Positions 16,653 through 20,747 of a stretch of 20,747 nucleotides of DNA are shown here, in pieces (the first letter of the stretch is position 1; every line of letters starts with the position of its first letter). The position numbers and the translations under genes were made by a program. A model generated the notes under the pieces. That model was not told the DNA's origin and did not search any database. It saw nothing but the letters and a program-made list of their open reading frames with translations. Location: positions 1-20,747 of the forward strand of contig NZ_LGDE01000467.1 in assembly GCF_001279725.1 (NCBI RefSeq), given 5' to 3'. Source of the DNA: Streptomyces sp. WM4235 (GTDB lineage: Bacteria; Actinomycetota; Actinomycetes; Streptomycetales; Streptomycetaceae).

Positions 16653-16731
16653 GGTCTCCGGTTCGTGCTCTCGGTGTATCTGGTACGGGCGGGAAGCGGT
16701 CGTACGTAGGACAACCGGGCCACCTTACCGG

Positions 16732-16766
16732 CACGGGCCCGCCCCTCGCGGAGGGACAGGCCCGTG
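16732..16766 (-). terminator. Hairpin downstream of the DHA2-like MFS gene
   Basis: CACGGGCC (16732-16739) pairs with GGCCCGTG (16759-16766). A symmetric 3x3 internal loop leads to an inner CCCTC-GCG-GAGGG stem. It lies about 115 nt after the MFS stop and about 80 nt before the helicase start, separating two same-strand genes. Confidence 0.65.
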
Positions 16767-16880
16767 ACCTCGGCGGGTGCGGCGAGCATCACATCCGTCG
16801 CGCTCGCGGCGCGGCCCGGGTGCCGTCACCCGTGTTCCCCGAGACGGCGCGGCCCCACCGGCCCGCGGGCCTCGCCCCGG

Positions 16881-18500
16881 TCAACTCCCTTGGGATCCAC
16901 GCCGTTCGGGGCCGGGAACGTCCGCCGGCGGGGCGGGGCGGGCGGCGGCGGCCGGGGTCGGCCGGGCGGCGTCCGCCGGGGCGGGCCGGGCAGCGGCGGC
17001 CGGGGTGGACCGGGCGGCGTCCGCCGGGGTCGGCCGGGCGGCGTCCGCCGGGGTGGCGTGCAGCCGGGTCGCCACCCACGCCCCCACCAACGCCACGCAC
17101 GCCATCGGCAGGAAGACCACCACGAACGCCCCCGGATGCGAGGACGCCCCACCGGAGGTCACGGCGTGCGCGGCCCCCACCGTTCCCCCGCCCAGCGCGG
17201 CGAACGCCGCCCCGCCGGCCGCCAGCAGCACCACGTTGGCCAGCGCGTCGGAGATCTGCAGGGCGGCGGAGTTCGCCCCGGCCTCCCGCGGCGCCGACAG
17301 CTCCAGCAGCAGCACGCTCGTCGAGCCGATCACCAGCCCCATCCCGAGGCACCCGACCGCCCAGGCCAACGCCAGCGTCCACACCGGAACCCACGTCAAC
17401 AGCACCGTCGGAGCGGCGGCGATGGCGAACGTCACCAGCACCATCCCGCCGACCATCAGCCGCTCCCGGTACGGGGCCATCCGCCCCTTCGACTGGACCC
17501 AGGAGCCGCCCGCCCAGGTGAGCCCGCCGAGCGCCAGCGAGAACCCGGCCAGGGTCGGACTCAGCCCCCGCTGGGTGACGAGCATCAGCGGCACGAAACT
17601 CTCGGCCGCGATGAACGAACCCGCCGCCACCCCCCGCAGCAACACCACAGACGGCAGCCCGCGCCGAGCCAGGTACGTTCCGCGCGGCAGCAGCCCCCGC
17701 GCCGCCGGCACCAGCAGCGCCGCGCCCGCGACGGCCGGCACCACCGAGAGCCACCGCAGGTCCTGGGCGGCGTACTGGAGCAGCCCCGCACCCGCCGAGA
17801 TCCCGAGGGCGAGCCGGATCCGCCGCCGGTCGAAGGCCACCGGCTCCCCGCCGGCTACGGGCCCGGACGCGGTCCGGCGGATCGCCGGTATCGCCACGAC
17901 CAGCGGTACGACGACCAGCGCGGGGATCGCGAGGAACACCCACCGCCACCCGAGGTGCTCGGTCACCGTGCCGGCGGCCAGCGGGCCCACGATCGACGGC
18001 ACCACCCAGCTCGCGGCGAAGGCGGCCATGATCGCGGGGCGCAGCCGCTCGTCGTAGGCACGGCTGACGACCACGTACAGGGCGACGATCACCAGCCCGC
18101 CACCGAAGCCCTGCACGGCCCGCCCGAGCAGGAACACCCACATCCCGGCGGCCGTCCCCGACAGCACCAGCCCGCCGGCGAACGCCCCGATCCCGAGGGC
18201 GAGCGGCCGCAGCGGCCCCTGCCGGTCGGCCCACTGCCCGGACAGCACCATGCCGAACAGGCTCGTCGTGAAGTAGGAGGAGAAGGCGAAGGCGTAGAGA
18301 CCGATCCCGTTCAGCTCCCGCGCGGCGACCGGCATGGCCGTGCCGACGGCGGTCGCCTCGAAGGCGATGAGGAACACGACGGAGATGATGCCGATGCTGA
18401 GCGTCCGGTACGCGGCCCCGAGGATCCCGCCCGGAGACTCCGAGGGCTCGGGCGGGACCGGTGCGGCGGTCTCGGGGACACGGGGTTCCAATGCGCTCAT
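16881..18500 (-). CDS. DHA2-like MFS drug/metabolite exporter
   Basis: 539 aa from ATG 18500-18498. The frame stays open another 500 bp upstream, but that part has non-coding character (tandem repeats, Arg/Pro/Trp-rich translation). A hydrophilic Pro-rich N-tail precedes about 12-14 membrane helices. Motif A is GQWADRQGPLRPL (88-100). GRAVQGFGGGLVIVALYVVV (126-145) is the Arg-containing helix typical of drug:H+ antiporters of the TetA/EmrB type, and WRWVFLAIP follows helix 5. The membrane part ends near WVATRLHA; the last roughly 57 residues are an octapeptide-repeat tail (TPADAARP-like) and a short end. A good TTGACA lies upstream. No regulator gene is adjacent, so inducer and substrate are unknown. 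Confidence 0.9.
   Translation of the reverse strand: MSALEPRVPETAAPVPPEPSESPGGILGAAYRTLSIGIISVVFLIAFEATAVGTAMPVAARELNGIGLYAFAFSSYFTTSLFGMVLSGQWADRQGPLRPLALGIGAFAGGLVLSGTAAGMWVFLLGRAVQGFGGGLVIVALYVVVSRAYDERLRPAIMAAFAASWVVPSIVGPLAAGTVTEHLGWRWVFLAIPALVVVPLVVAIPAIRRTASGPVAGGEPVAFDRRRIRLALGISAGAGLLQYAAQDLRWLSVVPAVAGAALLVPAARGLLPRGTYLARRGLPSVVLLRGVAAGSFIAAESFVPLMLVTQRGLSPTLAGFSLALGGLTWAGGSWVQSKGRMAPYRERLMVGGMVLVTFAIAAAPTVLLTWVPVWTLALAWAVGCLGMGLVIGSTSVLLLELSAPREAGANSAALQISDALANVVLLAAGGAAFAALGGGTVGAAHAVTSGGASSHPGAFVVVFLPMACVALVGAWVATRLHATPADAARPTPADAARSTPAAAARPAPADAARPTPAAAARPAPPADVPGPERRGSQGS
16929..17054 (-). repeat. Tandem 24-bp coding repeats in the MFS C-terminal tail
   Basis: Five full octapeptides TPADAARP, TPADAARS, TPAAAARP, APADAARP, TPAAAARP and a partial sixth follow one another in frame (24 bp each, about 126 bp). 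They lie after the last membrane helix, so they form a flexible cytoplasmic Ala/Pro/Arg tail. Because the unit is a multiple of three, copy number can change without breaking the frame. Confidence 0.9.
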
Positions 18501-19403: not shown

Positions 19404-19475
19404 AGCCGTGTGCCCGAGTGGTTGAGGGACTCGCCTGCAAAGCGAGTTACGCCGGTTCGATTCCGGTCACGGCTT
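19404..19475 (+). tRNA. tRNA-Cys (anticodon GCA)
   Basis: A full cloverleaf can be drawn. Acceptor AGCCGTG pairs perfectly with CACGGCT; the D-arm is CCC...GGG with loop GAGTGGTTGA. The anticodon stem CTCGC/GCGAG closes loop CTGCAAA with anticodon GCA, and the T-arm is GCCGG-TTCGATT-CCGGT with one G-U pair. The variable region is short (TTAC). The discriminator base at 19475 is U, the identity element of tRNA-Cys. The 3' CCA is not encoded, as is common in streptomycetes. A strong hairpin follows within 7 nt. Confidence 0.97.
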
Positions 19476-19481
19476 CGAATG

Positions 19482-19550: not shown

Positions 19551-20747
19551 TCAGTTGCCCGCGCGCCGCCCGAGCACAGTGGTGACGGCCCCGCCGACGA
19601 TCAGTACGCCCACCAGGCCGAGCCCGACCCACCACACCGTGCCGCGGAACCCGGCCGCCTCGTCCGCCCCGGCCTCCGTCAACGGCCCGGCGTCGCCGGC
19701 CGCCATCGCCGCGGCCGCGGCAACGAAGTCGGGCAGCGGGTACACGTCGGCCGGCCCGGGGGAACCCGGAGTGGACATCGCGATCCGGGGTCGGGCCACC
19801 CCGTACCCGATCCAGTCGTTGCGCACCGCACCGTCCACGGGAGCGCCGGAGGTGTTGAGCAGGACCCGGAGCACCTGGTTGTTGGTCCAGTCGGGGTGGG
19901 CGGACCAGAGCAGCGCGGCAGACGCGGAGGCCAGGGCGGTGGCCTCACCGGTCCCGTGGCTCTTGCAGTACCCCGCCTTGCCTCGGCAGGACGTGAGGAT
20001 GTCGACGCCCGGCGCGGCCAGGTCGACCTGGGGTCCCGTCAGCGACTCCGCGGTCGGCTCACCACCCGGATCTACGGCGGCGACCCCCACCACACCGGGC
20101 GTGGCCGCCGGATAGCGGAGCTCGCCCGCCTTCTTGGCCGCGATGGCGGCCGGGGTGGAACCGGTGGTCTCCCCCTCGCCCACGGCCGCGAAGACCAACT
20201 TGCCCTTGGACAGCGCGTACTTCACCGCCTCGTCCCGCGCCGGGTCGGCCGTCGTCGTGGACATGGAGATGTTGACGACCTTCGCGTCCGAGTCGGCCGC
20301 GCGCCGGATCGCCGCCGCCCAGGACGACTCCCCCGGCGCGTCCTCCCGAGGCACCCTGATCGGCAGGATCCTCGCCCCCGGAGCGATCCCGGACAGCCCC
20401 TCGCCCCCGGAGGCCTTGCCCGTACCGGCGATGATCGTGGCCATGGACGTACCGTGCCCGTCCTGGTCCGTACGCTCGTCACCCTCGACCTTGCCCCCGG
20501 CCAGGTCCACACCGGGCAGCACCTGCCCCTCCAGCTCGGGCACACGTCCCACACCGCTGTCGATGACAGCCACCGTGACGCCCTTGCCCGTGCCGACCTT
20601 CCAGAACTCGGCCGCCTTCATCACGGTGAGGTGCCACTGCTGCTCGCGAACGGTCTCCGCACGGGCCGGCGCCCCGGCAACCCCGACCACCAACAGACCG
20701 GCCAGCACCGGACCCGCCCCGCGCCAGAACCGCCGGCCCCGGCCCCG
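19551..20747 (-). CDS. S8/mycosin-like subtilase with lost catalytic Ser and oxyanion Asn (5'-partial)
   Basis: Residue numbers count from an internal GTG at 20708; the frame is open to the right edge (RGRGRRFWRGAGP...), so the true start lies off-window. Architecture is that of the type VII-secretion-associated mycosins: signal peptide ending APARA, subtilase domain (about 40-310), Pro-rich linker, and a C-terminal membrane helix (WWVGLGLVGVLIVGGAVTTV, 359-378) with a short basic tail. Asp50 (AVIDSGVG) and His85 (DGHGTSMA) are intact. The nucleophile motif GTS reads GTG: SHGTGEATALASASAALLWS with Gly254 (codon GGT, 19949-19947). The oxyanion-hole Asn (usual GN after the Ala-rich strand) reads Glu178 in FAAVGEGE (codon GAG, 20177-20175). 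Cys241 and Cys248, a pair expected to form a disulfide beside the active site, are kept. The fold seems preserved but hydrolysis should be lost. Convergent with tRNA-Cys. Confidence 0.9.
   Translation of the reverse strand, partial: RGRGRRFWRGAGPVLAGLLVVGVAGAPARAETVREQQWHLTVMKAAEFWKVGTGKGVTVAVIDSGVGRVPELEGQVLPGVDLAGGKVEGDERTDQDGHGTSMATIIAGTGKASGGEGLSGIAPGARILPIRVPREDAPGESSWAAAIRRAADSDAKVVNISMSTTTADPARDEAVKYALSKGKLVFAAVGEGETTGSTPAAIAAKKAGELRYPAATPGVVGVAAVDPGGEPTAESLTGPQVDLAAPGVDILTSCRGKAGYCKSHGTGEATALASASAALLWSAHPDWTNNQVLRVLLNTSGAPVDGAVRNDWIGYGVARPRIAMSTPGSPGPADVYPLPDFVAAAAAMAAGDAGPLTEAGADEAAGFRGTVWWVGLGLVGVLIVGGAVTTVLGRRAGN

Follow-up and report, generated by a model that had tools for sequence, protein, structure and literature searches.

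A mycosin without its catalytic serine, paired with an active mycosin in Streptomyces

Why would a bacterium keep, beside a working mycosin, a second one that has lost the means to cut? The question is raised by the DNA analysed here, referred to as the window: the entire contig NZ_LGDE01000467.1 (C466, 20,747 bp) of Streptomyces sp. WM4235, whose 7.8 Mb genome is assembled in 478 contigs. The gene at its right end, judged by its sequence, encodes a mycosin unable to cleave by the serine-protease mechanism, hereafter the pseudo-mycosin. Of the Asp-His-Ser triad and oxyanion-hole Asn that mark an active S8 peptidase, the protein retains Asp and His, and has Gly in place of Ser and Glu in place of Asn. 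A sequence-only reading of the window had described these replacements, and translation, the alignment of relatives and an alignment with subtilisin BPN' all agree with it. Residue numbers used here are those of that reading plus 13 (Asp63, His98, Glu191 and Gly267 correspond to its Asp50, His85, Glu178 and Gly254). The gene and its catalytic positions are as follows.

19551..20747, minus strand: pseudo-mycosin gene, 398 codons and a stop present, a single open frame to the contig edge
20559..20561, minus strand: codon of catalytic Asp63 (GAC), kept in the alignments
20454..20456, minus strand: codon of catalytic His98 (CAC), kept in the alignments
20175..20177, minus strand: oxyanion-hole position, Glu191 (GAG) replacing Asn in the alignments
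20124..20174, minus strand: stretch with an insert of ~11 residues right after Glu191, missing from the active mycosins aligned
19947..19949, minus strand: nucleophile position, Gly267 (GGT) replacing Ser in the alignments

The phmmer alignments with subtilisin BPN' sequences pair Glu191 with Asn in AAAGNEG and Gly267 with Ser in SGTSMA, and neither these nor the alignment of relatives places another Ser in the nucleophile column. Many relatives do read SHGTSDATA at the nucleophile, as stated in the earlier reading; of the VGNSG given there, the Asn is constant and the residues around it vary. The insert following the lost oxyanion position measures ~11 residues in four of the five proteins sharing these replacements and is shorter in the remaining one, P0003.

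The assignment to the mycosin-like subtilases holds, with a reservation about the score. The window protein (P0001) matches Pfam Peptidase_S8 (PF00082) at 142.4 bits, against a gathering cut-off of 21.8, and covers positions 2-347 of the 353 in the NCBIfam mycosin equivalog TIGR03921, where its 274.3 bits lie under the cut-off of 278.75. The TIGR03921 scan took in P0001, P0004, P0005 and P0122; P0004 (265.3), P0005 (271.1) and P0122 (246.2) also score below the cut-off, and the active paralogue on contig C214 of the same genome scores 294.9. In an AlphaFold2 (AF2) model with a predicted local distance difference test score (pLDDT) of 80, the best Foldseek match is MycP1. Profile coverage, model, fold match and hydropathy together indicate an S8 fold with a signal peptide and a C-terminal anchor.

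The two replacements are shared by several strains. We aligned 313 proteins (P0001 to P0313) from three protein searches, together with the window's and Streptomyces sp. CB01580's own; the searches contributed the best 120 of 3391, 3338 and 2052 matches, and the set is therefore no census. The residues Asp, His, Asn and Ser stand together in 274 of the 313. Ser is lost in 39, all of which also lack Asn, and no protein lacks just one of the two. The combination Asp-His-Glu-Gly occurs in exactly five, P0001 to P0005, which form one clade; in the first search these were the 5 of 121 proteins with the motif HGTGEATA, the remaining 116 having the intact set. In an initial set of loci with 45 distinct S8 frames, both changes were present only in the window gene. 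Search identities to the window protein are 99% for P0002 (Streptomyces sp. NPDC054949), 89% for P0003 (NPDC002039), 86% for P0004 (H27-H5) and 83% for P0005 (NPDC048272), or 99, 91, 87 and 82% in the alignment; after P0005 identity falls to ~60-65% among the matches listed. The named relatives belong to Streptomyces, except for one Actinobacteria bacterium record. Replacing Asn by Glu takes two base changes. Since Glu and Gly are common to the proteins of five strains, a single decaying allele is excluded, and a sequencing error or point mutation in the window is likewise ruled out by the same two changes in the four other strains. An orthologous clade with Gly and Glu thus exists, and the four proteins found closest to the window's have these residues, not Ser and Asn.

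The clade also appears to be maintained. Between the window gene and its H27-H5 counterpart, both already dead, the ratio of nonsynonymous to synonymous substitution (dN/dS) is 0.34 over the whole gene and 0.19 over the S8 domain, with significant purifying selection in each (Fisher p = 1.6e-8 and 7.6e-10). A set of 200 active mycosins provides 132 columns with a conservation of at least 95%, and 116 of these are the same in every one of the five Glu+Gly proteins; among the 55 columns invariant in the set, the only changes are at the oxyanion Asn and nucleophile Ser, two residues that the 200 possess by definition. The nucleophile is gone and the fold is kept under selection, as in a pseudoprotease; the earlier suggestion of selection on the fold rather than simple decay is borne out by both measures.

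An active paralogue had been suggested outside the window, and one is found at the extreme left end of contig C214: an intact active mycosin 65% identical to the pseudo-mycosin. Within the first 60 bases of C214, on the minus strand, it ends in VVVRRARR and a stop, which is overlapped by an ATG (TGATG). That ATG opens the peptide MGLAGLVG, the N-terminus of P0002, and on this match the two contigs would abut. Adjacency of C214 and C466, with the TGATG coupling the active and dead genes, is the most likely arrangement suggested by these sequences. The window gene is consequently not whole: the C214 end and the N-terminus of the 99% identical P0002 indicate that ~10 N-terminal codons lie beyond the contig end, at least 8 of them on C214. 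A GTG at 20708 was rejected as the start, the ATG being on C214. In H27-H5, which also supports the adjacency, the active and dead genes lie in tandem on one contig, active first, and in NPDC054949 P0002 and the counterpart of the active copy, P0084, are both listed with a 19,182-base contig. The inactive protein is therefore encoded with its active paralogue, as in the Csp type of pair, on one contig in H27-H5 and through the C214 end in WM4235. In the H27-H5 locus L166 (right end, ~16700-17020) the 5' part of the active gene is unlike a mycosin N-terminus, perhaps through an assembly fault at a repeat.

Upstream of the active mycosin on C214 lie genes for a small protein, p181, and a protein of 481 residues, p481, and these two genes also overlap as TGATG; after the p481 stop comes a GTG, 21 bases ahead of the initial Met of P0112. 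The gene order suggests an apparent four-gene operon of p181, a DUF2563 protein, then p481, the active mycosin and, last, the pseudo-mycosin. The p481 model combines a confident helical N-domain, whose best folds are PPE41 (TM-score TMt 0.78) and EspB, with a low-confidence tail modelled as disordered, the C-terminal tail being conserved. We predict that p481 is a PPE/EspB-like type VII substrate; no Pfam or NCBIfam family matches it at E<=0.01. The dead mycosin (window 19551-20747) has a third-position GC of 0.91, compared with 0.76-0.77 in the adjoining active mycosin and p481 (L043:24-2669) and at least 0.9 in most other called genes of the window and C214; a recent transfer or exchange of the active mycosin/p481 part is possible on this contrast.

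The cassette is common in the Streptomyces loci fetched (L043:1224-3214; homologues in L103, L167, L170 and L210). Its order is p181, p481 with a near-invariant tail and a mycosin, often followed by a 178-residue protein (p178), a 782-residue protein and a lipoprotein-like protein. Of 128 mycosin loci, 120 contain a homologue of p481, 91 one of p181, 86 one of the 782-residue protein, 72 one of p178 and 25 one of the lipoprotein-like protein, and 104 of 134 p481 homologues have the tail motif YL.E[DE].E.W. Similarity to mycosins was the basis for choosing these loci, some of which overlap within one genome, and the counts are not those of a random sample. DUF2563 was matched in two of the p181 homologues scanned, and neither p178 nor the 782-residue protein has a Pfam or NCBIfam match. 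Between the dead mycosin and the p178/782-residue genes, at L103:13764-17069, the minus strand carries genes for protein kinases, one of them with PQQ repeats; BLAST finds counterparts at L210:11216-14758.

A dead mycosin recurs elsewhere in the family. In CB01580 (locus L103) an active mycosin is followed ~1.1 kb downstream by a dead one in which Tyr replaces His, Asp replaces Asn and Gly replaces Ser. It belongs to a second clade of 34 proteins (that of CB01580 and P0123 to P0155, one of them named Kitasatospora cinereorecta), all without Ser and Asn, 31 also without His and 3 without Asp. Genome G194 carries a tandem of this clade, active gene first, after p181 and p481, so that the pairing of an inactive with an active paralogue is found in both CB01580 and G194. 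A P0148 match at E<=1e-120 was found in 1 of 199 genomes (G194), and with P0140 as query no further members of the second clade appeared, all 74 newly listed proteins having the intact Asp, His, Asn and Ser. Catalytic columns looked odd in 13 of 161 S8 hits, of which three are truly dead (L010, L058, L103). The second copy in L137 has an insert before Ser and L029 a shifted Asn; in the motif of four others Asn appears one position further left, two are truncated where the contig or frame ends, and L112 and L037 retain Ser and are gapped at the Asn column.

To the opening question we lean towards the following answer: the pseudo-mycosin is an exported, membrane-anchored, non-cleaving duplicate of the active mycosin, kept because it works by binding the active mycosin or its substrate. 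Its sequence footing consists of a catalytic site that is dead and identically altered in five strains, the purifying selection, the stop/start overlap and the existence of another clade of dead mycosins. The pseudo-mycosin would have arisen when an active mycosin was duplicated, and was then kept as a protein. Once expressed and exported to the outer side of the membrane, it may pair there with the active mycosin and tune the timing of its cutting; alternatively, it may hold the tail of the substrate, presumably secreted p481, without cutting it. Binding to p481 or to the active mycosin seems the most likely role given the analogy with Csp and MycP proteins and the stop/start overlap, which would favour joint production. 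A broader proposal, which we put forward tentatively and would sooner doubt than assert, is that Streptomyces has twice evolved an operon pair of active and dead mycosins in which the dead copy gates or targets the processing of PPE/EspB-like type VII substrates. If true, such pairs would be a natural split of the cutting and scaffolding roles that mycobacterial mutants separate.

Several observations weigh against this answer. The dN/dS of 0.34 compares with 0 to 0.03 in three flanking genes, a difference large enough to indicate weaker constraint on the dead gene. The clade is present in just 2 of 392 genomes of the genus, its own included (E<=1e-200), so most strains do without it. The junction of C214 and C466 is deduced, with no exact overlap of their ends at 11 to 150 bases, and the ~1.1 kb gap in CB01580 means that close coupling is not general. 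The fold matches of p481 are weak, none reaching E<1e-3 (best 1.6e-3), its model reaches pLDDT >=50 at only 178 of the 481 residues, and the p481 sequence profile finds no PDB chain at E<=0.1.

The pseudo-mycosin might instead be structural, stabilising an ESX membrane complex, for instance that of a second EccC/EccD locus, as MycP1 and MycP5 do without proteolysis. Such a role had been raised from the sequence, and its premise agrees with the available portion of PMC5082899, by which ESX-1 and ESX-5 secretion and complex stability require the mycosin and not its active site. Both the tail anchor and the core fold have been preserved, in keeping with this role, and the second locus (C13:129359-135950) has no mycosin in evidence: a search of the genome for S8 genes found 12 places, none on C13. 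Core ESX genes were to be looked for beyond the right edge, where the neighbours are in fact the active mycosin, the PPE/EspB-like protein and the DUF2563 protein. The matches to EccC and EccD that exceed the cut-off are found on contigs C456 and C13, away from the pseudo-mycosin, which is thus not encoded with these core components (EccB was not searched). We find a purely structural role rather unlikely, as the gene is part of a substrate cassette and the C456 core locus has a mycosin-like S8 gene of its own; moreover, the close active partner could do the same job, and most genomes searched lack the copy.

Quite unlikely, in our estimate, is a young duplicate on its way to loss, still unbroken and functionless. 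The small clade, the dN/dS above that of the flanking genes and the variable signal and linker would suit it. Against it, the protein is full-length in all five strains, down to 82% identity, and purifying selection on the S8 domain is significant after the loss of activity. Invariant S8 positions number 192 of 248 in the clade against 178 of 248 in five active relatives, and dead mycosins persist elsewhere, in the 34-protein clade.

The relation between the two dead clades bears on a further possibility, which we hold to be very doubtful: one ancient dead mycosin behind both, with gene conversion by the active neighbour making the window clade resemble active relatives. Dead genes of both clades do lie downstream of an active mycosin in the p181-p481-mycosin cassette, which adjoins molybdopterin hydroxylase genes in C214, CB01580 and G194. 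In the trees a single branch separates each dead clade from all other proteins, and that of the window is nested within a group of active mycosins. Grouping all dead mycosins as one clade was not rejected by a quick tree of 88 of 239 proteins (approximately unbiased (AU) test, p=0.082); a careful tree of the S8 core, 48 of the 239, run after that test proved indecisive, rejected it (AU p=0.0012). Catalytic columns were left out of both. The window clade keeps Asp94, His98 and Arg131, which the second clade keeps in 0%, 9% and 0% of its members. Two separate origins are favoured by these sequences, not proven. Finally, activity through another nucleophile or chemistry is extremely improbable, for although Asp63 and His98 are present in all five proteins, the oxyanion Asn is lost too, the fixed differences are not gains of Ser, Thr or Cys, no such residue stands out as clade-specific, and the nearby Ser263 and Thr266 also occur in active relatives.

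The other features of the gene and its surroundings are listed below.

20655..20747, minus strand: signal-peptide region, residues 1-31 (RRFWRG AGPVLAGLLVVGVAGAPARA), from the sequence; hydrophobic from residue 10
19965..19988, minus strand: Cys254 to Cys261, neither Cys varying among 72 aligned mycosins
19572..19643, minus strand: C-terminal transmembrane helix, residues ~369-392; 19-residue hydropathy up to 2.28, AF2 helix 365-397
19404..19476, plus strand: tRNA-Cys downstream of the pseudo-mycosin gene, with matching DNA beside or near mycosins in loci L167 to L170

The Cys pair likely forms a disulfide, to judge from its conservation. Of the hallmarks earlier called intact, the signal peptide and anchor agree with hydropathy and the AF2 model; the linker (residues ~341-368), described as Pro-rich, is no less rich in Ala and Gly. 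Tat export was considered and set aside: the n-region showed a twin Arg only, which almost all of 100 mycosins examined lack according to the part of PMC10924467 available.

The mycosins pose a puzzle, being proteases whose activity is dispensable for secretion and which are themselves required. A dead mycosin kept beside an active one, apparently with two origins, would provide a natural separation of these roles in genetically tractable soil bacteria, with p481 as a candidate substrate supplied by the cassette. Annotation is affected as well, since some proteins that databases call "S8 family serine peptidase" are dead enzymes. Titles and the opening parts of abstracts yielded no account of dead mycosins, and no paper combining mycosin and pseudoprotease was found, in a literature coverage outside which most subscription papers and preprints fall; the accessible part of PMC11217815 does not mention Streptomyces.

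Three known systems invite comparison. The mycobacterial MycP proteins (MycP1, 4kb5/4j94; TIGR03921) share the signal peptide, S8 domain and C-terminal anchor, and have a protease-independent role in ESX complex stability in the sections of PMC5082899 consulted. The pseudo-mycosin differs in the natural replacement of Ser and the oxyanion Asn, in its place away from EccC/EccD and in a TIGR03921 score of 274.3 against 278.75. EspB of ESX-1 is cut by MycP1 in its C-terminal region, as stated in the accessible text of PMC9811218. The modelled p481 resembles it in a PPE/EspB-like helical domain with a long tail predicted to be disordered, and differs in having no PDB sequence match; its cleavage and secretion are predictions. 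Active CspB of Clostridioides difficile works alongside two pseudoproteases, CspA and CspC, the latter with its Asp retained and a Gly where Ser would stand (PMC6636752, in the part available). Both sides are subtilase pseudoproteases with an active paralogue, and by analogy the Streptomyces pair may likewise interact. The Csp proteins, by contrast, are soluble spore proteins with a jelly-roll insert and no type VII link, and P0001 matches the CspBA model marginally (E 2.4e-4, far under the model cut-off). Mycosins and subtilase pseudoproteases were each already known; what is new here is their combination in a conserved pair of active and dead mycosins.
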